Shown here: piece by piece, positions 7,574-21,595 of the stretch | Position numbering within the stretch: position 1 is the stretch's first letter | Layout: each line of letters starts with the position of its first letter | Assembly (NCBI GenBank): GCA_951802115.1 | Contig: CATOPL010000016.1 | Coordinates: 16,523 to 80,522 of the forward strand | DNA from: an uncultured Lachnospiraceae bacterium | Lineage (GTDB): Bacteria > Bacillota > Clostridia > Lachnospirales > Lachnospiraceae | Reading direction: 5' to 3' | DNA length: 64,000 bases | Translations under genes and position numbers: made by a program | The notes under the pieces: generated by a model | What the model was told of the DNA's origin: nothing | The model's input: only the letters and a program-made list of their open reading frames with translations | Database searches by the model: none

Positions 7574-9631
7574 ATGAAACTTCGGGATTCAATTACAAAA
7601 ATAAAAGGAATCGGGGAGAAAACAGCAGTTCTTTTTGCAAAAGCAGGCATCCATACCATAGAGGATCTGGTACAGTATTATCCACGTGCATATGAAACAT
7701 ATGGAGAACCGGTGGAGCTGTCAGAGGCTGAGGACGGGAAAAAATGTGCAGTTTTTGGATATATTCTGTCTGTGTCGTCAGTGAAAAAGTATACAAAATA
7801 TCAGGTTTTTACGGCTCAGATCAAAGCAGGCGGAGAAGTTATGCAGGGGACCTGGTTTAATATGCCGTTTTTGCGGAATTATTTTCAGCGGGGCGGACAG
7901 TATATATTCAGAGGAGTACTCTGCCGGCGGGGAAATCAGTACCGGATGGAACAGCCGGAAACTTATTCGCTGGGAGATTATGAAAAACTGCTTCATGTGA
8001 TGCAGCCGAAGTATTCGCTGACGGCAGGGCTGACGGGCAAAATGGTGACGAAGGCGGTCCGGCAGGTACTGGATGACGGAGAAATCAATATGGAAGAACA
8101 TCTTCCCGAAGAAATAAGAAAATGCTATGGACTTCTGCCAAAATGGCAGGCGGTTCGGCAGGTACATTTTCCCGCTTGCGAGGATGAAATGAGAAGAGCA
8201 AGAGACCGTCTGGTGTTTGACGAATTTTTGTTTTTCATTCTGGGAATCCGAAGGATGAAAGAAAGTTGGGCCAGGCTTTCAAATGAAGCGCGGATGCTGG
8301 AAGTTCCGGAGACGGAGAGACTGATCGGAATGCTTCCTTATGACTTGACAGGAGCGCAGAAAAAGGTTTGGAAGGAAATCAGTGCAGACATGACAGGCAG
8401 TCATATTATGAGTCGCCTGGTACAAGGAGACGTTGGATCCGGAAAGACGGTACTGGCAGTGCTGGCGCTTGTCATGGCAGGCTGTAATGGTTATCAGGGA
8501 GCGCTGATGGTGCCCACGGAGGTGCTGGCAAAACAGCATTTTCAGTCCATTCAGGAACTGTTAATCAAGTATGAGATTCCGTTAAAGCCGGTTCTTCTGA
8601 CCGGCTCCATGACTGCAAAAGAGAAAAGGATGGCTGGTGAAAAGATTGCATGCGGAACAGTACAGATTGTGATCGGGACGCATGCGCTGATCCAGGAGAA
8701 CGTGAACTATCACCGCCTTGGTCTGGTAGTGACAGATGAACAGCACAGATTTGGTGTGCGCCAGAGGGAGATGCTGGCGGGTAAGGGACAGCATCCGCAT
8801 GTACTGGTTATGAGCGCCACACCGATTCCGCGGACACTGGCGATTATTGTTTATGGCGATCTGGATATTTCGGTGGTGGATGAGCTTCCGGCACGTCGTC
8901 TGCCGATCAAAAATTGTGTGGTAGACGAGTCTTATCGTTCCAGCGCTTACCGGTTTATGGAAAAAGAAACGGCCATGGGATATCAGGTATATATCATCTG
9001 TCCTATGGTAGAAGAAAGCGATGAGATGGAGCTGGAAAATGTCACTGATTACACAAAAAAACTAAAGGATCTGCTGCCGGAGCTCCGGATTGCGTGCCTG
9101 CATGGAAAGATGAAGGCAAAAGAAAAAAATCAGATTATGGAACAGTTCGCAGAAGGACAGATTCAGATTCTGGTATCTACAACCGTCATTGAAGTGGGCA
9201 TCAATGTGCCCAACGCAACTGTCATGATGGTGGAAAATGCAGAGCGGTTTGGCCTGGCACAGTTGCACCAGCTTCGGGGCCGTGTGGGGAGGGGAACTGC
9301 GCAGTCTTACTGCATTTTTATGAGCGGCAGCAAAGGAAAGGAGACCAAGAAGAGGCTGGAGGTACTGAACCAGTCCAACGATGGTTTTTATATAGCAGGC
9401 GAGGACTTGAAACTGCGGGGGCCGGGAGATCTGTTCGGGATACGGCAGAGCGGGATTCTGGAATTTAAACTGGGAGATGTGTTTCAGGATGCAAAAGTAC
9501 TGAAGGCGGCAGGTGAGGCGGCGGGCAGGATTCTGGACAAAGATCCGCAGCTGGAATTATCGGAACACCGGCTGCTGGCAGAAAGACTGGAGAGCTGCCT
9601 GAAAAAAGGCGGCGAGGGGATAAGTCTGTAA
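7574..9631 (+). CDS. recG: ATP-dependent DNA helicase RecG
   Basis: A 685-residue RecG, which remodels stalled replication forks and branched recombination intermediates. It shows an N-terminal helix-hairpin-like KIKGIGEKTAVLFAKAGI, the OB-fold wedge domain (about residues 60-160), Walker A GDVGSGKT, motif III-like MSATPIPRT, a DEQHRFG box (DEAH variant typical of RecG), and motif VI QLRGRVGRG. Start chosen at ATG 7574, where GGAGGAAAGG ends three bases upstream; an upstream in-frame start at 7547 lacks a site. The 219 bases before it contain only an imperfect hairpin (ACAGAC/GTCTGT, 7367-7407) followed by TTTT, possibly ending the yloV transcript. Confidence 0.95.
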   Translation: MKLRDSITKIKGIGEKTAVLFAKAGIHTIEDLVQYYPRAYETYGEPVELSEAEDGKKCAVFGYILSVSSVKKYTKYQVFTAQIKAGGEVMQGTWFNMPFLRNYFQRGGQYIFRGVLCRRGNQYRMEQPETYSLGDYEKLLHVMQPKYSLTAGLTGKMVTKAVRQVLDDGEINMEEHLPEEIRKCYGLLPKWQAVRQVHFPACEDEMRRARDRLVFDEFLFFILGIRRMKESWARLSNEARMLEVPETERLIGMLPYDLTGAQKKVWKEISADMTGSHIMSRLVQGDVGSGKTVLAVLALVMAGCNGYQGALMVPTEVLAKQHFQSIQELLIKYEIPLKPVLLTGSMTAKEKRMAGEKIACGTVQIVIGTHALIQENVNYHRLGLVVTDEQHRFGVRQREMLAGKGQHPHVLVMSATPIPRTLAIIVYGDLDISVVDELPARRLPIKNCVVDESYRSSAYRFMEKETAMGYQVYIICPMVEESDEMELENVTDYTKKLKDLLPELRIACLHGKMKAKEKNQIMEQFAEGQIQILVSTTVIEVGINVPNATVMMVENAERFGLAQLHQLRGRVGRGTAQSYCIFMSGSKGKETKKRLEVLNQSNDGFYIAGEDLKLRGPGDLFGIRQSGILEFKLGDVFQDAKVLKAAGEAAGRILDKDPQLELSEHRLLAERLESCLKKGGEGISL

Positions 9632-9696
9632 AAAACAGGTAGAAAAAAGAAGAATTATGCGTTATACTGAAAAAATAACAGAGAGGAGAGTGCAAA

Positions 9697-10338
9697 ATGA
9701 AAAAACGTATGTGGAGACATGGTTCGCTGCTTGTTCTGCTGCTGACGGTACTGACAGTGACCGGATGCTCGGGCGGCAGTAAAACAGAACCGGAGCCGGA
9801 AGTAGAGGAACCGGTGTACACGGTTTCTATTGGGGATACCCAGATTCGTGTTGGGGAGACAAAGGTTCAGGCGCTGCTGGATGCAGGGATGAATGTTACC
9901 TGGTCGGAAATGACATCAGATAACCAGATTCAGGAGTATACGGTCGATCCCGAGATGGAGCTGGAAGCGAATTCCTATTACACCGGCGGTTCCGTCTGGA
10001 TTACAGAATCTACATTTGCCCATGTTTCGTTTGCAACAGAGGACGAGTCTGTAAAATTAGGAGACGCTGTGATTGCGAGGATGGAATTTAACCTTTCTTT
10101 CAGAGAGGAAGATAAAGAGGCGCAGGCGGAGATTGCTTTTGACGGAGTCCCTGTTACAGAGATGACGCGGGAAAAAGCCGGCGAACTCTATCCGGACTTT
10201 ACCGGTGACGAAGTGATGTGGTTCAGTACAGGGCTGAAAAATTACGATTATGGCCTGTATTTTGATTCTTCCAGCGGAGGACTTATGAAATTTTCAGCCG
10301 AATACAGGTACGACGTAGACTGGAGCGGCGGTAACTGA
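9697..10338 (+). CDS. Lipoprotein, paralog of the one at 39568-40206
   Basis: A 213-residue secreted lipoprotein with signal MKKRMWRHGS, hydrophobic core LLVLLLTVLTVTG and lipobox Cys at about residue 24, followed by a Glu/Pro-rich tether. The folded part contains IGDTQIRVGETKVQALLDAG, a GGSVWITESTFAHVSF strand pair, LGDAVIARMEF and ELYPDF. These motifs recur in order in the minus-strand lipoprotein at 39568-40206, so the two are paralogs. No known domain recognised; the start after GAGAGGAGAG at about 9680-9689 is good. It lies 65 bases after recG and may be transcribed separately. Confidence 0.75.
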   Translation: MKKRMWRHGSLLVLLLTVLTVTGCSGGSKTEPEPEVEEPVYTVSIGDTQIRVGETKVQALLDAGMNVTWSEMTSDNQIQEYTVDPEMELEANSYYTGGSVWITESTFAHVSFATEDESVKLGDAVIARMEFNLSFREEDKEAQAEIAFDGVPVTEMTREKAGELYPDFTGDEVMWFSTGLKNYDYGLYFDSSSGGLMKFSAEYRYDVDWSGGN

Positions 10339-10487
10339 GACGTTTAAAAAAGATTAAAAAATCTGTCAGAAAATGAAGGAATTGTCAGTGTATTTGCCTG
10401 CGGAGTACATATACTATAGTCGTAACAAACAACAACAAATTGCGAAGCACCAAAGATAATCTGTTTCGCAGTAAGGAGGAGTTTATT

Positions 10488-10691
10488 ATGTCTAATTCTA
10501 CAAACAGAGCAGCAGTACCAGAAGCGAAGGGAGCACTTGACCGTTTTAAATATGAGGTGGCAAGCGAGATCGGCGTACCGTTGACAGACGGATATAACGG
10601 CGACCTGACTTCCAAACAGAACGGTTCTGTAGGCGGATATATGGTGAAGAAGATGATCGAGGCGCAGGAGCGCCAGATGGCAGGTAAATAA
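10488..10691 (+). CDS. Alpha/beta-type small acid-soluble spore protein
   Basis: A 67-residue SASP that coats spore DNA and is degraded by the germination protease GPR. Recognised by the GPR-cleavage region FKYEVASEIGV (about residues 20-30) and the conserved DGYNGDLTSKQNGSVGGYMVKKMIE segment (long enough that only its ends need quoting: DGYNG, GGYMVKKMI). The start at 10488 follows AAGGAGGA with good spacing; an earlier in-frame ATG at 10440 lacks one. Upstream at about 10400-10430 is a CATATACTA sequence that loosely resembles a forespore sigma-factor -10 element; this is only suggestive. The gene is monocistronic and shows that the organism can sporulate. Confidence 0.93.
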   Translation: MSNSTNRAAVPEAKGALDRFKYEVASEIGVPLTDGYNGDLTSKQNGSVGGYMVKKMIEAQERQMAGK

Positions 10692-10701
10692 GAACGAGGA
10701 G

Positions 10702-10736
10702 ACAGGGATGCTGAAGTAAACGGCATCCCTGTTTTT
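10702..10736 (+). terminator. SASP gene terminator
   Basis: ACAGGGATGC (10702-10711) pairs perfectly with GCATCCCTGT (10723-10732), followed by a T run to 10736. Confidence 0.92.
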
Positions 10737-10817
10737 CTGTCCTGAAGTGTGTCTGAGCATGGTATACATGCAAACGATCACCTTATTTGGAAAACAATTT
10801 TAAATGCCGGAAGATAT

Positions 10818-10846
10818 TTGACTTGTCAGGATGATGGCAGTACAAT
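10818..10846 (+). promoter_or_regulatory. Promoter of the MoxR/DUF5682/vWA/SWIM/DUF4132 cluster
   Basis: TTGACT at 10818-10823 and TACAAT at 10841-10846 with an exact 17-base spacer, 41 bases before the first gene of the cluster. Confidence 0.75.
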
Positions 10847-10886
10847 AGATACAGGTTAAATCAGGGACAAGGAGAGGAATCTGCAT

Positions 10887-12002
10887 ATGGAACGAAAAGC
10901 ACAGATCAAGCCGCCGGTAGAGGTACGGTATGAGAAAGAGCTTGCGGCTCTTGCGGCTCTGGATCAGGGAAAAAAACCATTAAACTGGAAACTGTCGCCC
11001 AGAGCAGTGAGGACATTTATTCTGGGAAATCATGAGCCTTTGATCTGGAACGGAGAAAAGATAGTTGTCCGCAAAAAATATCTGGGAAACGATGCGCTGG
11101 TAGAGCGCTGTATTATCACGCTTGCCGGCAACCGAGGGCTGATGCTGGTAGGAGAGCCGGGAACGGCCAAAACCATGCTGTCGGAGCTTTTATCAGCCGC
11201 TGTCAGCGGCAGCAGTACCAATACAATTCAGGGTACGGCGGGAACGACGGAAGACATGATAAAGTACAGCTGGAATTATGCGCTTTTGCTGGCAAAAGGG
11301 CCGGTAAGAGAGGCGTTGGTGCCTTCTCCTCTTTATGTAGGGATGGAACAGGGGATTCTGACCCGTTTTGAAGAGATTACCCGTACACCGGCAGAGATTC
11401 AGGACAGTCTGATCAGCGTACTCAGTGATAAAGTACTGAATGTCCCGGAACTTGGTGAGGAAGGGCTGCTTTTTGCCAGGGCAGGTTTTAATGTAATTGG
11501 CACTGCAAACACAAGAGACAAGGGTGTTAATGAGATGAGCAGCGCCCTGAAACGCCGCTTTAATTTTGAGACTGTAATGCCGGTACGGGATGTGGCACTG
11601 GAAAAGCAGATCATCATCAACGAAGTGCAGGAGCTGGCGGAAGCAAGCAGGATTGATATGCCTGTAGATGAGGATGTGGCAGAACTTCTTGCGTCGACTT
11701 ATCATGAGCTGCGGGAAGGAATTTCGTCTATGGGTCATCGGATTGACCGTCCGGCATCGGTCATGAGCACGGCGGAGGCAGTATCGGTCTATTACCAGAC
11801 GATGATGACGGCTTATTATTATGGAGATTCCCGAATGGATCTGGGCTGTCTGGTACAGAATCTGGTAGGTGCTGTACAGAAAGAAAACAGAGACGATCTG
11901 GAAAAGCTCCGCAGTTATTTCCAGACGGTGGTACGGGATAAGGGAGGCAAAGAGGGGCAGCTATGGGACAGTTATTACGAGGCGAGGAAGTACCTCAGAT
12001 AA
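10887..12002 (+). CDS. MoxR-family AAA+ ATPase, YehL-like
   Basis: A 371-residue AAA+ ATPase of the MoxR group. Walker A GEPGTAKT is at residues 89-96, the Walker B region reads TRFEEITRTP, and sensor-1/arginine-finger regions include GTANTRDKGVNEMSSALKRRF. MoxR ATPases act as chaperone-like machines that work with vWA-domain partners. The gene heads a five-gene cluster with DUF5682, vWA, SWIM and DUF4132 proteins, the same set as E. coli yehL, yehM, yehP, yehQ and yehI, which is why I call it YehL-like. Start at ATG 10887 after AAGGAGAGG. The next gene begins inside its 3' end, suggesting translational coupling. The cellular target is unknown. Confidence 0.88.
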   Translation: MERKAQIKPPVEVRYEKELAALAALDQGKKPLNWKLSPRAVRTFILGNHEPLIWNGEKIVVRKKYLGNDALVERCIITLAGNRGLMLVGEPGTAKTMLSELLSAAVSGSSTNTIQGTAGTTEDMIKYSWNYALLLAKGPVREALVPSPLYVGMEQGILTRFEEITRTPAEIQDSLISVLSDKVLNVPELGEEGLLFARAGFNVIGTANTRDKGVNEMSSALKRRFNFETVMPVRDVALEKQIIINEVQELAEASRIDMPVDEDVAELLASTYHELREGISSMGHRIDRPASVMSTAEAVSVYYQTMMTAYYYGDSRMDLGCLVQNLVGAVQKENRDDLEKLRSYFQTVVRDKGGKEGQLWDSYYEARKYLR

Positions 12003-14452
12003 CGATGGAAGAAAATACAGACGGGATAATGGTTCAGAATTTTTTTGATCTTAAAGAACCGGTTCTGTATTTTCCGATTCGGCATCACAGCCCTGCGTGT
12101 GCCTGGCATTTGAAAAAAACAGTTGAAGCTTATAATCCGGACTGTATTCTGATTGAAGGCCCGTGCAATGCGCAGGAACAGATTCCCATACTTGCTCACA
12201 AGGATACAAAAGCGCCGATCGCTCTTTATTATTTCTATAAGGATAAAAAAGGGTTGTTAAGCGGGGAAAAAGAAAGCTACAAATGTTATTATCCGTTTCT
12301 GGACTGTTCTCCGGAACTGGTCGCCTTACGTGCGGCAGCGGAGCGTGGGATTGCTGCACAATTTATTGATCTGCCTTACGGAGAGATTTTGATCGGTACA
12401 GAAGAAAAGAAGGGTATTCGGACAGAACGTGAAAAACAGACTTATAACGATGATTATCTGCTGAGCCAAAGCCGTTATTTTGAACGTCTCTGCCAGAAGA
12501 CGGGACTTCGGAGTTTTGATGAGCTGTGGGAAAAATATTTTGAAATCGGAGGGCTTTTTCAGACTACAGAGGAATTTGTGCGCCAGATGAATATCTATTG
12601 TTATCTTTCCAGAATTCATACGCCGGAAGAAGAGCTGGAAGCTGACGGATGCCTTCTGCGGGAACGGTATATGGCAGAGCAGATTGCAAAAGCTTCTGAA
12701 AGCGGTAAAAAGCTTCTGGTGGTAACAGGAGGATTTCATACATATGGGATCAGAGAACTGTTGAAAGGCAGTCTCTGCCCGGAGACGGCCCCAAAAAAAG
12801 CGGGTGAGAAGTCATGCGGAGAAGACGCTGTCCGGTATGTGGCAGATCCGGCAGTGCTTCATGGCCTGTCGGACCAGGAGCAGGGAGTTTATCCGCTGGC
12901 TTATTCCATGGAAGCGACGGACGCGCTGAACGGATATGCGAGCGGTATGCAGTCACCGGGATTTTATCAGCAGGTGTGGGAACGGCTGGTCAAAGGGGAG
13001 TCGGCAGCCGGGGCTTATGAAGATGCGGTTTTGCATCAGCTTGTGAGTGCAGGACGCAGAGCGAGACAGAAAAAAGAAAGTCTTTCTTCCTATGATGTGA
13101 TCTGTGCTTTTTCTATGGCGAAAGGTCTGGCAGCACTGCGCGGTAAAAAAGAACCGGGCCTGTATGAGCTTCGGGATGCTGCCCTGTCTTCTTTTGTAAA
13201 AGGAGAATACAGTCCTTCTACAGACCTGTCACTTCGGATTCTTGAGAACCTGAACACGGGAAAGCAGGTGGGAAAGCTGTGTGAAGACGCTCTGCGTCCG
13301 CCGCTGCTTGTGGACTTTGAAGAACAGTGCAGAGTGTTCAGGCTGAAAATACAGGCGGCAGGGCAGCAGGAAGTCATACTGGAACTTTTTACCAAGAAAA
13401 AACATCTTGCCATAAGTCGTTTTCTGTATCAGATGGATTTTCTGGGCACAGGTTTTGCAAAACGGACCAAAGGGGCTGATCTGCTGAAACGGAAAGACCG
13501 GAATCGCATCCGGGAGACCTGGAGCTATCGTTTTACAGGTCAGGTGCTTTCAGCCCTGGTGGATGTATCCATGCTGGGCGGTACGGTGGCGGAAGCGTCA
13601 CGCACTCGTCTGCTGCGGGAGTTTGCCAGAAGCGAAAGCAGTCAGGAGGCGGCAGGGCTTCTGACCAGAGGTTTTCTGATGGGATTTCTGGAAGAGCAGG
13701 CGGGGATGGGCGCACATATCCGGGAAGTTCTGGCTGCAGACGGAGATTTTTTTTCTTTGGCGGAAGGGTTTTCTCATCTGCGGATGTTATATGAACTGCA
13801 GGAGCTGTATGAAGTGGAGGATGAAACAGAGCTAGAAGAACTGATCGGTATCTGTTTTCAGAAAATTGTGCAGCTTTTGCCGTCCATGTCACAGGTGAAG
13901 GACGAACAGCAGCAGTCATGTATGGAAAGCTGTCTGTCGCTCTATCAGATTACCGGCAGAAGTGGTTTTTCTCATTTTCGTCAGGTTTTGCTGGAAGCTT
14001 TTGAACGCCTTCTCGAACAGCCAAAAATACAGCCGGGACTGGAAGGAAGCGTGCTGGGGTTGCTTTATGGATATGACAGCAGTTATGATGAACGAATCCA
14101 GAAGACAGCGTCCGGATATCTTCAGGGGACGGATGAGATGAGAATGAAAAGTGCGCTGTTCTTACGGGGACTGTTTTTTACTGCAAGAGATTTTGTATTT
14201 GTACATGAGAATTTTCTTGGTATGATTGACGGCCTGCTGGCAAAACTGCAGACAGAAGCGTTTATGAAGCTGCTTCCGGAACTCCGTCAGGCTTTCGGAT
14301 ATTTTACTCCGCTTGAAACGGATCGTATTGCGGAGAAAGCAGCGGCTATCCACGGTGTGAAAAGGCAGGAGCTTTTAAGAGGAAGGATGGTATCGCCAGA
14401 GGAATATGAGTATGGAGAAATGCTGGACGCGTATGCGGTGAGGAGCCTTTAA
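11963..14452 (+). CDS. DUF5682 family protein, YehM-like
   Basis: An 829-residue protein of the DUF5682 family, which accompanies MoxR and vWA genes. Family-like features are PIRHHSPACAWHLKKTVE near the N terminus, ILIEGPCNAQEQIPIL, and GGFHTYGIREL at about residues 255-265. These His/Glu/Gly patterns recall the TraB/ChaN/EreA-like hydrolase fold; that comparison is inference. The C-terminal two thirds look helical. The start at 11963 lies inside the MoxR gene with AGAGGGG five bases upstream; ATGs at 12005 and 12029 are alternatives with poorer sites. It overlaps the ATPase gene by 40 bases in another frame and ends 185 bases before the vWA gene. Confidence 0.8.
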   Translation: MGQLLRGEEVPQITMEENTDGIMVQNFFDLKEPVLYFPIRHHSPACAWHLKKTVEAYNPDCILIEGPCNAQEQIPILAHKDTKAPIALYYFYKDKKGLLSGEKESYKCYYPFLDCSPELVALRAAAERGIAAQFIDLPYGEILIGTEEKKGIRTEREKQTYNDDYLLSQSRYFERLCQKTGLRSFDELWEKYFEIGGLFQTTEEFVRQMNIYCYLSRIHTPEEELEADGCLLRERYMAEQIAKASESGKKLLVVTGGFHTYGIRELLKGSLCPETAPKKAGEKSCGEDAVRYVADPAVLHGLSDQEQGVYPLAYSMEATDALNGYASGMQSPGFYQQVWERLVKGESAAGAYEDAVLHQLVSAGRRARQKKESLSSYDVICAFSMAKGLAALRGKKEPGLYELRDAALSSFVKGEYSPSTDLSLRILENLNTGKQVGKLCEDALRPPLLVDFEEQCRVFRLKIQAAGQQEVILELFTKKKHLAISRFLYQMDFLGTGFAKRTKGADLLKRKDRNRIRETWSYRFTGQVLSALVDVSMLGGTVAEASRTRLLREFARSESSQEAAGLLTRGFLMGFLEEQAGMGAHIREVLAADGDFFSLAEGFSHLRMLYELQELYEVEDETELEELIGICFQKIVQLLPSMSQVKDEQQQSCMESCLSLYQITGRSGFSHFRQVLLEAFERLLEQPKIQPGLEGSVLGLLYGYDSSYDERIQKTASGYLQGTDEMRMKSALFLRGLFFTARDFVFVHENFLGMIDGLLAKLQTEAFMKLLPELRQAFGYFTPLETDRIAEKAAAIHGVKRQELLRGRMVSPEEYEYGEMLDAYAVRSL

Positions 14453-14538
14453 AATACGTGTAAGCTGGAGGAAATCCATGACTGTGGCGGAACGAAGAAA
14501 ATGAATTTTCAGACACGATCCGGATCAGTCTGCGATGA

Positions 14539-14567
14539 TTGACAGCATATGACATGCGTGCTATTCT
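14539..14567 (+). promoter_or_regulatory. Internal promoter before the vWA gene
   Basis: TTGACA (14539-14544) and TATTCT (14562-14567) with a 17-base spacer lie in the 185-base gap between the DUF5682 and vWA genes, the only sizeable gap in the cluster. It would allow the vWA-SWIM-DUF4132 half to be transcribed independently. Confidence 0.6.
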
Positions 14568-14637
14568 GACATTTAAGAATAGCTACTGGCAGGTCAGACA
14601 AGGATAAAAGAGTGGTTTAGGGAAGGGGAATTCGGAT

Positions 14638-15771
14638 ATGAGTGCAGATACCGGTCAGTTGAACAGATGGCGACTCATACTTGGAAGCTATTCCAGGAAG
14701 CAGATTGGTTTTGAAGGCGGGGCATCTCTGGAAAACGGAATTTCCTGTATAGATCTGGAGGAAGCGCTGGATTTTTTGTATAACAGGGAGCAGGGGGAAG
14801 ATGTACGCAGACAAGGCGGAACGGAAGCCAGCCGCCTGACTGCTGCGACCTGGATCACGCGGATCCGGAAGCTTTTTCCCAGAGAAACAGTGGAAATACT
14901 GGAGCGTCATGCGCTGGACTGTTACGGGATGACAGAACTTCTGACAGACAAAGAGGTGCTGGAAAAGCTGGAGCCGAATCAGGAGCTTCTGAAAACGATT
15001 CTGCAGCTGAAGCATCTGATGAAAGGAGACGTACTGGATACAGCGCGCCGGATCGTAAAGAAGGTAGCGGAGGAGATTGCAGAGAAACTGAACCAGGATA
15101 TCAGAAAATCGCTGCTTGGAAAAATAGACCGTAATTTAAACAGTCCGGTCCGTTCGATTCGGAATCTGGATATTCAAAAAACGATCCGCAGAAATCTGAA
15201 ACATTTTGACCGTGAAAATGGCAGGCTGATGCTGGAACAGGTGTATTTTAACGGCAGGACCAGAAAATACAGCCAGTGGCGGGTAGTGATCGCGGTAGAC
15301 GAGAGCGGATCCATGCTTGATTCAGTTATTCACAGTGCAGTGATGGCAGGGATCTTTGCGAAGCTTCCCATGCTGGATACAAGACTGGTAATTTTCGATA
15401 CACAGGTGGTAGATCTGAGCGGTCATCTGGAAGATCCGGTAGCGACTTTGATGAGCATTCAGCTGGGAGGCGGAACTTATATTACGGGAGCGCTGCAGTA
15501 CTGCGAAACGCTGGTTGACAATCCGCATCGGACAATGGTAGTGCTGGTATCGGACCTTTGTGAAGGCGGCAGTGTGTCCGCTCTTCTGGGAGTAAGCAGA
15601 GGAATAATTGAAAGCGGGGCGAAACTGATCTGTCTGACGGCACTGGATATGGAGGCAAATCCGGTCTATGACAGGCATACGGCACAGAAGCTTGCGGATC
15701 TGGGTGCCCATGTAGGAGCCATGACTCCGGAAGCACTTGGAGATTTTATGGGAAAGCTCATGAATGAATAA
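14638..15771 (+). CDS. vWA-domain protein, YehP-like
   Basis: A 377-residue protein with a helical N-terminal half and a C-terminal von Willebrand A domain. The metal-ion-dependent adhesion site is complete: D221-x-S223-x-S225 in AVDESGSM, Thr280 in GGGTYITGA and Asp306 in LVSDLCEG. Such proteins bind a divalent metal and a partner, and commonly act as adaptors for MoxR ATPases. There is no signal peptide or membrane segment, so it is cytoplasmic. The start at 14638 has GGGAAGGGG upstream. The SWIM gene starts 22 bases after its stop. Role in the cluster: probably the substrate adaptor or metal-sensing partner of the ATPase (inference). Confidence 0.88.
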   Translation: MSADTGQLNRWRLILGSYSRKQIGFEGGASLENGISCIDLEEALDFLYNREQGEDVRRQGGTEASRLTAATWITRIRKLFPRETVEILERHALDCYGMTELLTDKEVLEKLEPNQELLKTILQLKHLMKGDVLDTARRIVKKVAEEIAEKLNQDIRKSLLGKIDRNLNSPVRSIRNLDIQKTIRRNLKHFDRENGRLMLEQVYFNGRTRKYSQWRVVIAVDESGSMLDSVIHSAVMAGIFAKLPMLDTRLVIFDTQVVDLSGHLEDPVATLMSIQLGGGTYITGALQYCETLVDNPHRTMVVLVSDLCEGGSVSALLGVSRGIIESGAKLICLTALDMEANPVYDRHTAQKLADLGAHVGAMTPEALGDFMGKLMNE

Positions 15772-15793
15772 AATCTGTCAGGAGGTTTCAGAA

Positions 15794-17941
15794 ATGAATT
15801 TAAAGGAGATGCTGAAGCAGGCAGATGATGATTATCTGACAGGACTTTGCAATAAGGGAACTGTAAAACGTGCTTATAAAGATCTGGGACAGGAGACTCC
15901 GGTGTCAAAGTGGAAAGAGGAAGAAGCTGAAGTGACGCTGAAGGAGGAGACTTGCGTGATCCGGATGCCGCTGGGAGAGAGTAGTTGTTCCTGTCCGTCA
16001 AGAAGTATCTGCCGTCACATTGTGACGGCAATCCTGTGGCTGAAAAAAGATCTGGAAGAAACTACTGCCGATACGGCAGAAGAAGTATCAAATTCCCCCG
16101 GGCAGGAAATCGAAAAAGCAGGAAAACAGGCGGAAACACAGTTGCTGGAAGAGATATTGCAGATCCCGTCTGCCCGATTGAAGAGAGTGTGCAGAGGGAG
16201 AAGGTTTGAACGGTTTCTGTCGCATCTGAATGCGGGAGAGTTTCCGCTGATAGAGGAAAGTTCAATCGTTACGGTGACGATTCCATGGGAAGAGGCGACG
16301 GTCAGACTTCTGGAACCGTTTGCTTATTCCAGCTGCAGCTGTCACAGCAAAGAGCTCTGTATTCACAAAGCGCAGGCAGTCCTCGCTTATCAGATCAGAA
16401 AAGGGCGGATCACTCTGGAGGGGCTTTCGGAATTTCGGGAGTCAGAACATATATGGGATGAAGAACAGCTAAAAAAAACCTGCACAGCTGTCTGTGAATC
16501 TGTAATTCATCAGATGTATACCGGGCTCTCCAGACAGTCGCCGGAGATATCAGCCAGCCTGGAACGTCTGGCAGTTATAACGCACCGGGCGGGTCTTCCT
16601 TCCCTGGAAAGCAGGCTTCGGGAAGCAGCATCAGAATATCAGCAGTATTTTGCCAGATCAGCAGCATTTCGAAATGAGATGCTGCTGGGAAAGCTGCTGT
16701 GGCTGTATGAAAGGGCGCAGCAGCTTTGCCATGCAAAGGGCCAGAAGGAAATCCGCGCTCTTGCAGGAAACTTTCGGGATACTTATGAATCTGTGGGAAC
16801 ACTGCACCTTCTGGGGATGGGAGGCAGATCTTTTTCCAGCAAGACAGGATATGAGGGAGAGATTTATTATTTTCTGGAGCCGGAAAAGAAAAAGTGGTAT
16901 ACATGGACGGACGCCCGGCCTGCTTTTTATGAAGGGGTCCGAAGGAGACCGCCTGCCTCATCCGAAAATGTCTCTGCTCCTTGGGGGCTGAACTGCAGCA
17001 GAGAACAGCTTCAGGACCTGGAATTTGAACTGATCAACGCCCGGGCCGCCTCCGGAGGACGTCTGTCTGTAAGTAAGGACAGCAGAGGGGAAGCGCTTGG
17101 CTGCAGAAGTCTGGAAACGGAAGGACTCAGAGAAATGATTGTGTGGGACTATGAGGAGCTTCTTGTTCAAAATTTCGGAAAAACGGACCAAAAGGCTGAT
17201 GAGGAAACAGACAACCGTGCGGAAGGCAGGCGGGAAAAACTCGTTCTTGCAGGTGCAGTTCGCTGGGGAGAGACAGATTTTGACACGGTGGAACAGCGTT
17301 TTTCCTGGAAGCTTTTTGATCAGGAGGGAAGAAGCCTTTTTGTAGCTCTGCGTTATACAAAAGAAGAACGGCTGGTGATTCATATGCTGGAGAGGCTGGA
17401 GCGGAGGCTGAAAAAGCGCAGACAGAAGGCCATAGTATGTTTCGGCGCTCTATATCTGGACGAAGACGGCAGAATGTGTCTGTATCCTGTAGAATTTCTG
17501 CTGAAAGGTGTGGAAGAAGTCCTGGAAGACAGCAGGGGCTGGGGAAAACAGGTTACCGGCGCAGGGGTGTCAGTAAAAGACAGAAAGTTTCCGTCTAAAG
17601 AAACAGTTTATGTGATGGAACGATATCAGAACGAAGCTGTACGCCAGCTGTCGGATCTTTTCGTCAGCGGGTTTTCATCTGTTCAGGAAGATACGCTGCA
17701 TCAACTGTCTGTATTGTCAGAAGACGGTGAGCGTCTCGGACTGCATCGGGCAGCTGACGAATTTGGCAGTATCCGCAGAGTTCTGGAAAGGAAACGTCAT
17801 CAGATAGAATTTTCACCGGAGCCGGTTCTGGAGTCGGAAATCAGACTTTATAAATATTTTGCGGCATGCAGAAAAAAACTTTCCTGTGATATGGCGCTGC
17901 TGCAGCAAACAGCGTCGATGCAGGGTGAATTTTCAACCTGA
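15794..17941 (+). CDS. SWIM zinc-finger protein, YehQ-like
   Basis: A 715-residue protein with two SWIM-type zinc fingers of identical spacing (CxCx5CxH): Cys65, Cys67, Cys73, His75 and Cys181, Cys183, Cys189, His191. SWIM domains usually mediate contacts with DNA, RNA or proteins. The remaining ~500 residues have no motif I recognise. Start chosen at ATG 15794, eight bases after AGGAGG (15780-15785), rather than the in-frame ATG at 15764 that overlaps the vWA stop. It is flanked by the vWA and DUF4132 genes, matching the YehQ position in the E. coli-type set. Two SWIM motifs in one protein are worth noting. Confidence 0.85.
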   Translation: MNLKEMLKQADDDYLTGLCNKGTVKRAYKDLGQETPVSKWKEEEAEVTLKEETCVIRMPLGESSCSCPSRSICRHIVTAILWLKKDLEETTADTAEEVSNSPGQEIEKAGKQAETQLLEEILQIPSARLKRVCRGRRFERFLSHLNAGEFPLIEESSIVTVTIPWEEATVRLLEPFAYSSCSCHSKELCIHKAQAVLAYQIRKGRITLEGLSEFRESEHIWDEEQLKKTCTAVCESVIHQMYTGLSRQSPEISASLERLAVITHRAGLPSLESRLREAASEYQQYFARSAAFRNEMLLGKLLWLYERAQQLCHAKGQKEIRALAGNFRDTYESVGTLHLLGMGGRSFSSKTGYEGEIYYFLEPEKKKWYTWTDARPAFYEGVRRRPPASSENVSAPWGLNCSREQLQDLEFELINARAASGGRLSVSKDSRGEALGCRSLETEGLREMIVWDYEELLVQNFGKTDQKADEETDNRAEGRREKLVLAGAVRWGETDFDTVEQRFSWKLFDQEGRSLFVALRYTKEERLVIHMLERLERRLKKRRQKAIVCFGALYLDEDGRMCLYPVEFLLKGVEEVLEDSRGWGKQVTGAGVSVKDRKFPSKETVYVMERYQNEAVRQLSDLFVSGFSSVQEDTLHQLSVLSEDGERLGLHRAADEFGSIRRVLERKRHQIEFSPEPVLESEIRLYKYFAACRKKLSCDMALLQQTASMQGEFST

Positions 17942-18064
17942 TAATTTATTGGATTTCTGCCGTCTGTACGTCCTGCAGACAGTAACGCGCAGATGTCAGA
18001 AACAGTTTTCAGACATGATTTGGAACAACCGCAGAAACAAAACAGAAAAAAGGAGGATGGGGCT

Positions 18065-21000
18065 ATGAATTTGAGTGAAGAACGCGGTCGCCAGAAACTT
18101 TTAGAAGTTCTGGAACTTTTAGAATTATCAGATAAAAACAGGATACTGGCAGAGAAATATCTGGAACTGGATACGGAGGAGAACAGAGAACTTCTGGCCG
18201 GGGCTGAACCGCAGGACTTTTCCAGACTTGGCAAAGAAGTGTTTGATAAATGCAGAGGATATAAGAGCCATTGTCAGAAACGGAACCGGAAAGAAGAACT
18301 GGAGCGTTTTGTTCGTTTTACGGCGGCGGTTGGAGGTTCGACCGCTTATTATGTGCTGGTATCTTATGGATGGAATATTAATACCATTCTGGAATATCTG
18401 ACAACAGAGCAGGCGGCAGCAATCCGGGCAGAAGGAATCGCTTGGAATATTTACGGTATTAAAAGCGTTCTGACCGGAGTTGTGCAGAAGACGCCGCAGG
18501 TGTTAAGAGACGCCATGGAACTGTGCTATCATAAAAGTGATAATGCCAGGTCGCTTTTGGCAGCGGTATCCCTGTATTATACAAAGCCGGAAAAATCTGC
18601 CGGAGGAGTTTTAAAATCGCTGTTTTCGGGCAGTAATGCGGAGCAGATTAAAAAGACAGTGCAGTATCTGGAATCCAATCAGGTGGAGAGCATAGAAAAT
18701 ATATTTATGGGAAGCGCACCCTCCGGCGAGGATATGAAAAAACTTGTTTCATTTGTGAAATTGTCCTCCGCAGAACAGCCGCTGCCGCCGGAAATTATTC
18801 AGATTCTGAAGGGAAGGCAGGTATCTGACTATCTGATCACTCTGCTTGCAGGGGAAGCGTTTCTGGCGATTGAGCACTCCCGGCAGTTCGCGGCATTTTT
18901 AAAACTTGCGATTGCTATGGATACGGAATGGAACCGGACCACTACTCTGGATATATGCCTGAATATTGGCGGACAGTCATGGTTTTTTCAACATATTGGA
19001 GCATTGGAGGACACGATTCCGATGCCGCGGGAAAACTATGTAATCTGGTGCCTGAAAAACTGTAAATATGGAAGTCCGGTAAAACGGGTTGTAAAAAATC
19101 ATCCGCAGGTGATCCGTCAGTTAATTGCAAAAGTATCTTCTGAAGAATATCAGCATCTGCTTGCGATGGCAAAAGATATGAATCCTATGCTTTACAGGGA
19201 GCTGAGCAGCAAAGGTTCCGGTGAGTTCCGAGTAAAGCTGGCACAGGAGCTGACCGCTCATTATGGAAAGGGCCAGGCGGAAGCAGCACAGTATCTGCTG
19301 GGTGAAGCAGAGTTGGAGTCGCTTTATCCTTATTTGAAAGAATGGCGCGGCGACTGGGATTATGATACCAGGAAATGTCAGAAAATACAGGCTTTGAAAA
19401 AAAATGACCTGGAGAGAGAGATGTATCAAAGGGCCGTCGTTTTGGAAGGGCTCTGTATGAAAGCCAGGTATTTCTGCAGTTACTGGCACGGTTCCTGGAA
19501 GAAGATGGACCGGACAACGATCGCAGAAATCATAGAGCTGTTTGAAGAACAGTCTGTACCGGTGTCTTATCAGCTGGAAGCGCTCAGTGGAATTTACGAC
19601 AGTTATTATTCTGAAAAAGACAAGACAGATTTTATAAATGAATGTTCCTGGGTGATCCGTCAGAAAAAGGACAAATGGGGAGAAGCTCTGGCTGTTCTGG
19701 CGAGAGAAGGAAGTGCAGTCGTTCGTTTTCTCTGTATCCGGGTGCTGGAAATATACGGGCAGGAATACAAGGAGGTTCTTTTGTCCTGTGCCGTGGATAG
19801 CAGCAGGCAGGTACGGGAGCTTCTGGTAGCAGTCTATGAAGGAATCAGGGACTGGGAACCGGATATCAGGCAGATGCTGTCGTCGAGAAAGTCTCAGGAA
19901 CGGGAGATGGCCATACTGGTTATGAAGCGCTGGGGCACTGATTTGTACAGGGAAGAATTCAAAGCAGCGCTTGAGAAAGAAAAGAGTAAAAAGATCAGGG
20001 AACTTCTGGAAGGGTGTCTTGGTATTGAAAACAGTCCGGCAGGAGTTAAAAAAGAGCAGACTCTGGATGAACTTATCAAAGAAGTTCTGAAAGGTGGAAA
20101 AAAACGGAAAATATCGTGGGTGTTTGAAAAGACGTTTCCGGAGATACACAGGCAAGACGGAACGCCTGCGCCGGAAGATCATCTGGCTGCGATTCTTGTA
20201 TGTTATGCCAATATGGGAATTCCGGGTATGAATAAAGAAGCGGCAGTTCTGGCGGCAGATCTGGACTCCGAGGAGCTGGCCCGCTGTATGAGTCTTCTTT
20301 TTGAAAGATGGATGGAGACGGGGGCTGAGGCAAAGAAAAAGTGGGTTCTTTACGCAGTGGCTGTACATGGGGGAGAAGCGGTTATTCCTGTACTGCATGC
20401 GCAGATCCAGGAATGGCCGAAAGCATCCCGAGGAGCGATGGCAGCGGAAGCAGTAAAGGCGCTGGCTTTAAACGGAAGCTCGACCGCGCTGCTTCTGGTA
20501 GATCAGATTTCCCGTAAATTTAAATTCCGTCAGGTAAAAACCGCGGCTTTGGAGGCACTTTCTTATGCGGCGGAGCAGCTTGGTATTACGAAGGCGGAAC
20601 TGGAGGATCGGATTGTACCAAATCTTGGATTTAATGATCAGATGGAGCAGGTGTTTGATTATGGGACGAGGCAGTTTCAGGTGCTTCTGACTCCGGCGCT
20701 GGAACTGGAGGTCTATGACGGAAACGGCAAAAAGCTTAAAAATCTGCCGGCGCCGGGCAAAAAAGATGATCCGGATCAGGCAAAGGCTGCCAGCGATGCT
20801 TACAAGCTTCTGAAAAAACAGCTGAAAACAGTAGTTGCCAATCAGAAGCTGAGGCTGGATCAGGCTATGAGTACAGAACGGATATGGCAGGCAGAGCAGT
20901 GGAGGGAGCTGTTTGTAAAGAATCCGGTCATGCATCAGTTTGCGATTGGACTGATCTGGGGAATATATGAAGAAAAAATTCTGAAAAGCACTTTCCGCTA

Positions 21001-21595
21001 TATGGAAGACGGAAGCTTTAATACAGTGGACGAAGAAGAATTTGAACTGCCGCAGGCGGGATGTATCGGTCTTGTACATCCTATTGAGCTGGATGAAGAA
21101 AGTCTGGCAGCATGGAAGGAGCAGCTGGCTGATTATGAGGTGACACAGCCGATCGAACAGATGGACCGGCAGGTGTACCGTCCGACAGAGGAAGAATGCG
21201 TTCAGTCGGAGCTTACGCGTTTTGGAGGAAAGTTGTTAAACGGGCTGTCTCTGTCCGGTAAACTCCAGAGTATGGGGTGGTATCGGGGAAGCGTGCAGGA
21301 TGCAGGCGGATATTATACTTTTTACCGGGAAGACGGAGATATCGGTGTGGAACTGGAATTTTCCGGCTGTTATGTCGGAGATGAAAATGAGGAAGTGACG
21401 GTTTACGGCGCACAGTTTTATAAAGCGGGCACGGTACAAAGAGGCAGTTATGTCTATGATACTGTAAAAGAAGAACACCGGTATAAACCGGGAGAAGTAA
21501 GTCCGCGGTATTTTAGCGAGATTGTACTGCAGCTTACAAAAGCAACAGCGTCTTCCCAGGAGCAGCTGGCCTATCCGGAGTGTAAAAATAATTGA
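18065..21595 (+). CDS. DUF4132 protein, YehI-like
   Basis: A 1176-residue, probably soluble protein made largely of helical repeats that read like degenerate HEAT-type repeats (for example around residues 560-700 and 760-880). The C-terminal region carries the DUF4132 signature: LSYAAEQLGITKAELEDRIVP, LGFND, and a following stretch with KNLPAPGKKDDP and RIWQAEQWRELFVKNPVM. E. coli YehI has the same domain, and the family was once annotated as molybdate-metabolism regulator, without a clear function. I see no WGR domain. Start at ATG 18065 with AAGGAGG at 18049-18055; a further in-frame ATG at 17993 lacks a site. Last gene of the cluster, 24 bases before the asparaginase gene. Confidence 0.85.
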   Translation: MNLSEERGRQKLLEVLELLELSDKNRILAEKYLELDTEENRELLAGAEPQDFSRLGKEVFDKCRGYKSHCQKRNRKEELERFVRFTAAVGGSTAYYVLVSYGWNINTILEYLTTEQAAAIRAEGIAWNIYGIKSVLTGVVQKTPQVLRDAMELCYHKSDNARSLLAAVSLYYTKPEKSAGGVLKSLFSGSNAEQIKKTVQYLESNQVESIENIFMGSAPSGEDMKKLVSFVKLSSAEQPLPPEIIQILKGRQVSDYLITLLAGEAFLAIEHSRQFAAFLKLAIAMDTEWNRTTTLDICLNIGGQSWFFQHIGALEDTIPMPRENYVIWCLKNCKYGSPVKRVVKNHPQVIRQLIAKVSSEEYQHLLAMAKDMNPMLYRELSSKGSGEFRVKLAQELTAHYGKGQAEAAQYLLGEAELESLYPYLKEWRGDWDYDTRKCQKIQALKKNDLEREMYQRAVVLEGLCMKARYFCSYWHGSWKKMDRTTIAEIIELFEEQSVPVSYQLEALSGIYDSYYSEKDKTDFINECSWVIRQKKDKWGEALAVLAREGSAVVRFLCIRVLEIYGQEYKEVLLSCAVDSSRQVRELLVAVYEGIRDWEPDIRQMLSSRKSQEREMAILVMKRWGTDLYREEFKAALEKEKSKKIRELLEGCLGIENSPAGVKKEQTLDELIKEVLKGGKKRKISWVFEKTFPEIHRQDGTPAPEDHLAAILVCYANMGIPGMNKEAAVLAADLDSEELARCMSLLFERWMETGAEAKKKWVLYAVAVHGGEAVIPVLHAQIQEWPKASRGAMAAEAVKALALNGSSTALLLVDQISRKFKFRQVKTAALEALSYAAEQLGITKAELEDRIVPNLGFNDQMEQVFDYGTRQFQVLLTPALELEVYDGNGKKLKNLPAPGKKDDPDQAKAASDAYKLLKKQLKTVVANQKLRLDQAMSTERIWQAEQWRELFVKNPVMHQFAIGLIWGIYEEKILKSTFRYMEDGSFNTVDEEEFELPQAGCIGLVHPIELDEESLAAWKEQLADYEVTQPIEQMDRQVYRPTEEECVQSELTRFGGKLLNGLSLSGKLQSMGWYRGSVQDAGGYYTFYREDGDIGVELEFSGCYVGDENEEVTVYGAQFYKAGTVQRGSYVYDTVKEEHRYKPGEVSPRYFSEIVLQLTKATASSQEQLAYPECKNN

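Follow-up and report, generated by a model that had tools for sequence, protein, structure and literature searches.

The window analysed here, a stretch of 64,000 nucleotides from an uncultured Lachnospiraceae bacterium (GCA_951802115.1, contig CATOPL010000016.1), carries at positions 10887-21595 a cassette of five open reading frames, all on the + strand, which code in this order for a MoxR AAA+ ATPase, a DUF5682 protein, a vWA protein, a SWIM zinc-finger protein and a DUF4132 protein. We propose that the five genes specify one ATP-driven machine, in which a MoxR-vWA motor would activate DUF5682 as a hydrolase, the SWIM and DUF4132 proteins choosing its target, and we consider the chances of this picture to be about even. 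DUF5682, to which the first-pass annotation of this DNA had assigned no clear role, is likely the catalytic subunit. As read from the sequences, the case consists of five families linked across phyla, intact ATPase and metal ion-dependent adhesion site (MIDAS) motifs, and a near-invariant R-H/E/R-E/GxxH set in DUF5682. The gene order and single strand given in the first-pass annotation were confirmed by the reading frames and by Pfam (AAA_5, DUF5682, VWA_CoxE, SWIM and DUF4132), with lengths below in amino acids (aa) and base pairs (bp):

10887..12002, + strand: MoxR AAA+ ATPase, YehL type, 371 aa (Pfam AAA_5, 6.3e-33)
11151..11174, + strand: MoxR Walker A, GEPGTAKT (alignment of 112 proteins)
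11355..11384, + strand: MoxR Walker B region, ILTRFEEITR, with Glu for the usual Asp (alignment of 112 proteins)
11963..14452, + strand: DUF5682 protein, 829 aa, YehM relative (Pfam, 1.9e-102), overlapping the MoxR gene by 40 bp
14638..15771, + strand: vWA (CoxE-type) protein, 377 aa, YehP relative (Pfam VWA_CoxE, 2.8e-43)
15298..15312, + strand: vWA MIDAS, DESGS, plus T280 and D306 (alignment of 114 proteins)
15764..17941, + strand: two-SWIM zinc-finger protein, YehQ relative (Pfam SWIM, 9.9e-5, above the cut-off)
15986..16018, + strand: SWIM motif 1, CSCPSRSICRH (alignment of 78 proteins)
16334..16366, + strand: SWIM motif 2, CSCHSKELCIH (alignment of 78 proteins)
18065..21595, + strand: DUF4132 protein, 1176 aa, YehI relative (Pfam, 8.6e-54)
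20726..21280, + strand: DUF4132 domain (Pfam)

The SWIM protein probably starts at 15794, giving 715 aa, the length of the database copy as well. The 1176 residues given earlier for the DUF4132 protein hold if translation starts at the ATG at 18065, which follows AAGGAGG; the longest frame is 1200 aa.

Predicted fold and conserved site of DUF5682

The signature of the Tiki superfamily is a pair of GxxH motifs enclosing a Glu and an Arg. The DUF5682 alignment comprised 120 of 153 matches (91 from the window's branch, the window protein included, and 29 others), matches with shared tails or fewer than 650 aa having been dropped, and its most conserved residues map as follows:

12044..13000, + strand: DUF5682 N-terminal domain (aa 28-346), predicted Tiki/TraB/EreA/ChaN fold
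12080..12085, + strand: R40-H41, first predicted active-site motif (119/120 each, remaining row gapped)
12155..12157, + strand: E65, predicted active-site Glu, end of strand 2 (119/120, remaining row gapped)
12659..12664, + strand: R233-E234, predicted active-site Arg and its neighbour (120/120 each)
12728..12739, + strand: G256-G-F-H259, second GxxH motif (G256 and H259 in 120/120)
13400..14449, + strand: C-terminal helical part (about aa 480-829), perhaps an alpha-solenoid

D136 is likewise present in 119/120, the other row being gapped there too. The first motif reads PIRHHSP in the window protein and GIRHHSP in YehM of Escherichia coli; the Gly of this first GxxH occurs in 26 of the 29 proteins outside the window's branch, and its place is taken by Pro in the window protein and in 90/91 of its branch. 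H41 lies after strand 1, E65 in strand 2, and R233 in the helix preceding the strand that H259 follows. In one active Tiki-type member, PMC6254334 gives catalytic-site roles to Glu, His and Arg, with the Glu 28 residues on from the His and the Arg 29 residues before the second His; the corresponding spacings in DUF5682 are 24 (H41-E65) and 26 (R233-H259).

What DUF5682 has in common with the Tiki superfamily (TraB/PrgY, ChaN, EreC) is the predicted fold and the residue order H...E...R...H. It differs in its long helical C-terminal half, in its genomic tie to an AAA+ motor, and in the absence of the Glu two residues before the first His, position 39 being Val in 49 and Ile in 18 of 67 DUF5682 proteins. 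Since this Glu of the 2His/2Glu set is missing, an Ere-type esterase and an RRSP-type endopeptidase were dropped as candidates. The conserved residues support a hydrolase-like site, not the Ere/RRSP catalytic branch.

The N-terminal domain is predicted to have a Tiki fold, with a parallel beta-sheet core flanked by helices. Structure searches gave a clear outcome only with this domain alone; for the full-length model, the Foldseek rows were mostly helical-repeat proteins and the top VIA result was one Tetrahymena row. Sequence searches of the PDB gave no match for DUF5682 alone and, with its profile, nothing better than E 0.09. Since the E. coli TraB protein YbaP also had no clear relative in the PDB (best E 0.53), the Tetrahymena chain could not be named by sequence; from a figure legend in PMC10060162, according to which complex IV contains a TraB-family subunit, we infer that the chain matched is this subunit.

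DUF5682 might instead be a Tiki-fold carrier of metal or haem like ChaN, with MoxR-vWA inserting the cofactor into an enzyme encoded elsewhere. We regard this as unlikely, because the conserved R-H/E/R-E/H set resembles that of catalytic relatives and no metalloenzyme appears among the recurrent neighbour clusters scanned (the scan covered representatives from 7 of 40 listed clusters).

Motor, partner proteins and linkage across genomes

The MoxR residues P91, G92, T93, A94 and K95 (Walker A), R160, E162 and E163, N208 and R223/R224 are present in 112/112 aligned proteins; we take N208 to be sensor-1 and R223/R224 to be arginine residues of the AAA+ motor. Walker B reads RFEE, with Glu replacing Asp in 112/112, which is unusual among AAA+ ATPases. 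Judged by these residues, the AAA+ motor motifs are intact, and MoxR fits the YehL subfamily, one of seven in the MoxR family, by its sequence closeness to YehL and its adjoining vWA gene. The complete MIDAS described earlier in the vWA protein is borne out by D221, S223, S225 and D306 in 114/114 aligned proteins and T280 in 113/114. The same is true of the two SWIM fingers: both CxC...CxH motifs are present, with their Cys and His kept in 73-77 of 78 aligned proteins (branch-B SWIM proteins, described below, fell under the score limit of this alignment), and Pfam scores one stretch here and two in YehQ. A PDB search with the SWIM profile likewise found nothing better than E 0.09. Two frames stand for the SWIM protein in many loci (L037-L042, L044-L046, L050, L051, L053, L054 and others), mostly of 540-680 aa and about 100-240 aa, the small piece lying directly 5' of DUF4132.

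A scan with the DUF5682 alignment, one genome per species, confirmed at least 544 relatives, and the best 80 of these were used; as related genomes picked through DUF5682 they are non-independent. Of the 80 loci, 63 have the full set of five genes on a single strand, 62 of these arranged as in the window. A contig or locus end truncates 11 more, and the remaining six (L015, L026, L049, L070, L077, L092) are without at least one gene despite room. The gaps have medians of -3 and 19 bp across the 63 loci and of 26 bp across the 60 loci with SWIM before DUF4132. Among 250 genomes of the family, DUF5682 occurs in 24, DUF4132 in 24 and both in 11. The window's DUF5682 branch is found in ten, and the same ten are those with a DUF4132 protein of about 1200 aa (Fisher 5e-18, a figure that ignores phylogeny and leaves a 364-aa frame in G486 unclassed). 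The co-occurrence that the first-pass annotation had proposed to check thus exceeds chance. No DUF4132 protein of about 1200 aa was found without the cassette among the 250 genomes, other DUF4132 frames being mostly about 1500-1800 aa. Extra copies of about 1200 aa occur in G410 (two on other contigs, the cassette itself being without an adjoining copy), and four DUF4132 copies lie near the cassette in L155/L156.

The cassette also occurs in other builds. Loci L151-L154, from another family of the phylum (f33), read MoxR-DUF5682-vWA-DUF4132-SWIM. In a second DUF5682 branch (branch B) the order is SWIM-HEAT protein-MoxR-DUF5682-vWA: the HEAT protein adjoins MoxR in 15/15 loci with room and a SWIM-like protein lies beyond it in 14/15 (L168 and L182 were excluded for contig ends); the HEAT protein is a 277-aa piece in L179, and L167 showed no recognisable vWA. 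YehM matches occur in 31 plasmid records, 8 of which were examined. Those of Iodobacter and Allorhizobium hold the five families in two further gene orders, and those of Deinococcus and Rhizobium read SWIM-DUF5691-MoxR-DUF5682-vWA, as does that of Methylosinus up to a vWA that is not annotated. In the Hymenobacter record one protein combines DUF5691 with a SWIM match below threshold, an apparent SWIM::DUF5691 fusion, the Streptomyces record holds an odd version in which vWA and SWIM are not annotated, and the eighth is E. coli. The HEAT protein is similar to a part of DUF4132 (82% probability, E 1e-5); DUF5691 has no detectable relation to DUF4132 or the HEAT protein. MoxR and DUF5682 are present throughout, vWA and SWIM nearly always, and the fifth slot is taken by one of three large proteins, DUF4132, HEAT or DUF5691. 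In every build that shows both motor genes, the DUF5682 gene sits between them. That the genes are merely co-regulated, with no single complex, strikes us as scarcely probable when five gene orders hold the set together, one apparent SWIM::DUF5691 fusion exists, and the DUF4132 protein of about 1200 aa keeps to genomes with the cassette in the family sample.

The E. coli K-12 region comprises yehF (WGR), yehH (a pseudogene), yehI (DUF4132), yehK, yehL (MoxR), yehM (DUF5682), yehP (vWA) and yehQ (SWIM). Annotation and BLASTP agree with the kinship stated earlier: identity is 48% between MoxR and YehL (367 columns), 26% between DUF5682 and YehM, 43% between the vWA protein and YehP, 26% between the SWIM N-terminus and YehQ (208 columns, E 4e-9) and 33% between DUF4132 and YehI (362 columns). 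The five families and the L-M-P-Q order are common to both regions; in E. coli, DUF4132 lies upstream, with the WGR gene yehF and a second, broken DUF4132 gene, yehH. The view of the cluster as a conserved multi-gene machine related to these genes is accordingly supported by family matches and linkage. The yehLMPQ DNA is found in 5301/5426 complete E. coli genomes, and the ratio of nonsynonymous to synonymous substitution rates (dN/dS) lies at 0.03-0.20 when K-12 is compared with divergent strains, four of them for yehL, yehM and yehP and three for yehQ (yehQ of L237, annotated as frameshifted, was left out and the others were compared over 600 codons). Nearly universal in E. coli, the yehLMPQ genes are maintained by selection. 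YehQ is annotated with 614 aa in K-12 (L001:13101-14945) and with 666-667 aa in four other E. coli records (L192, L236, L238 and L239). A literature search turned up no published function for yehL, yehM, yehP, yehQ or yehI, in line with the unsettled function noted earlier, and a text search of 5.39 million papers found none mentioning DUF5682. The label "undescribed" therefore stands for function; it does not stand for the genes themselves, which are annotated in E. coli, the YehL subfamily being named within the MoxR family in PMC3893208.

The first-pass annotation had also suggested a response to foreign DNA. The cassette's patchy presence (24/250 genomes of the family, 8/17 in the genus), defence-type genes in a few cassettes (AbiEii in L056; RloB and AAA_21 in L156) and a restriction-modification set beyond the Iodobacter cassette would suit an anti-phage defence system, which we nevertheless consider very unlikely and find unsupported: the best PADLOC match (E 0.012, to IetA) covers only MoxR residues 81-105; 16 pattern matches in viral contigs gave none confirmed, two peptide patterns reaching only similar relatives; a phage collection gave one unannotated record at 24% identity; and yehLMPQ is present at 80% coverage or more in 5162/5426 E. 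coli genomes. Recurrent neighbours scanned are mostly transporters and kinases, and a defence island was rejected because the seven cluster representatives (an ABC transporter, a hybrid kinase, MatE, an ABC/AAA_15-type ATPase, a tRNA synthetase, a leucine-rich-repeat protein and a GntR regulator) are mostly generic. Extra genes within cassettes are heterogeneous (an epimerase, RhuM, AbiEii, an aminotransferase, a Schlafen-type protein and two ADP-ribosylglycohydrolases), for which reason we claim no accessory effector.

A stress or DNA-damage machine, with SWIM and DUF4132 binding nucleic acid or damaged complexes, MoxR-vWA stripping them and DUF5682 as an accessory, is in our view rather improbable. 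The only functional hint found in print bears on it: according to PMC8533742, the Deinococcus genes drA0166 (DUF4132) and dr2173 (WGR as in MolR), both of unknown function, are strongly up-regulated when the repressor DdrO is depleted. The WGR protein YehF adjoins yehH-yehI in E. coli, and the patchy presence (8/398 phylum genomes over the cut-off, the window's own included, and 8/17 in the genus) is compatible with an accessory stress function. Against it, LexA-type patterns do not exceed chance in the window (20 vs 22.1 expected) and absent from the E. coli region at up to 3 mismatches, and the DUF5682 N-terminal domain retains its own near-invariant residues in every build aligned. ADP-ribosylglycohydrolase genes lie in or beside the cassette in two loci (L081:12523-13431; L156:81-1838), one of them fused to a Macro domain; together with yehF they make a link to ADP-ribosylation possible.

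Promoter-like sites and surroundings

Two promoter-like sites are associated with the cassette:

10818..10846, + strand: TTGACT-17-TACAAT, 10/12 match, 40 bp 5' of the MoxR start
14539..14567, + strand: TTGACA-17-TATTCT, 10/12 match, in the gap 5' of vWA

The first had been called a strong promoter. The site exists; its strength is not upheld, as such patterns are common in the region (23 vs 13.3 +/- 3.9 in shuffles) and this one is not conserved: DNA upstream of the cassette in 14 other loci (two alike) fails to align, 4/14 having a promoter-like match at a different place. The second carries TG ahead of its second hexamer and lies in a 185-bp gap (14453-14637) before vWA, for which the median in the 63 relatives is -3 bp.

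The cassette is preceded by recG, by a gene for a lipoprotein and, just upstream, by a gene like those of small acid-soluble spore proteins (10489-10692) with a terminator-like hairpin 3' of it; these three genes and the hairpin were named by eye. Downstream lies an asparaginase gene. No Rfam family was found in the window, riboswitches having been looked for. The recG neighbourhood recurs in 1/7 other genus members with the cassette; no empty site or mobile element was found at recG, where cassette-less genus contigs ended nearby or went unexamined. The 3.3-Mb genome has one DUF5682 match and five DUF4132 matches. Tandem DUF4132 genes of about 1175 aa lie off the cassette (L163, G000:C5:28000-47000, at 8199-11747 and 12728-16237), and two DUF5724-DUF4132-DUF7737 proteins of about 1700 aa are encoded in L164 (G000:C11) and L165 (G000:C4), one among cobalamin/tetrapyrrole genes (CbiD, a HemCD-type fusion and a CobB/CobQ-type protein). 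A cobalamin link of the long proteins was rejected, as the few neighbours scanned around the second gene showed nothing of the kind.

Proposed machine and related systems

By analogy with NorQD and CbbQO, the MoxR hexamer would grip a finger of the vWA protein and twist it. In NorQD, according to PMC13036017, the finger of the vWA protein lies in the pore of MoxR, where its twisting remodels a linker; the authors presume this binding mode to be general. Here the twisting would remodel or load DUF5682, whose gene lies between both motor genes, and not nitric oxide reductase or rubisco. Once activated, DUF5682 may hydrolyse a peptide or ester bond, with the SWIM protein and the scaffold, DUF4132 being a predicted helical-repeat protein, selecting the target. 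Identities between the window and two relatives fall from 81-87% in the motor parts through 62-70% in DUF5682 to 51-62% in SWIM and DUF4132, a gradient that fits this model.

The NorQ-NorD, CoxD-CoxE and CbbQ-CbbO chaperones have in common with the cassette MoxR and a CoxE-type vWA protein with intact MIDAS; they differ in that their known clients are absent here and the cassette adds three subunits, one with a predicted Tiki fold. DUF5682 could also be a metalloenzyme client of a CoxDE/NorQD-like chaperone. The MoxR-vWA ternary conflict systems (Kaur et al. 2020, PMC7159879) likewise join further components to a MoxR-vWA core, with VMAP, iSTAND, FtsH or a beta-propeller as third partner. None of these was found in a Pfam scan of the five proteins, in which bpMoxR and nSTAND3 stayed below their cut-offs, and the main text of PMC7159879 does not mention Yeh, Tiki, TraB, zinc finger, DUF5682 or SWIM.

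The families and their E. coli counterpart were known; two points are new, the assignment of DUF5682 to the Tiki fold, conserved site included, and a five-slot layout found across phyla. Whether they amount to a new class, a MoxR-vWA motor powering a Tiki-fold protease or esterase with swappable scaffolds (DUF4132, HEAT, DUF5691) and SWIM adaptors in several phyla, we put a little short of even. If a Tiki-fold hydrolase is coupled to MoxR-vWA, MoxR chaperones would come with an enzyme of their own, and the Tiki fold, so far familiar from TraB, ChaN and EreC, would acquire an ATP-driven context. Such a machine, with no function in print, would be present in almost every E. coli genome, where a few DUF5682 residues are offered for mutation and unexplained genes would receive a testable job.
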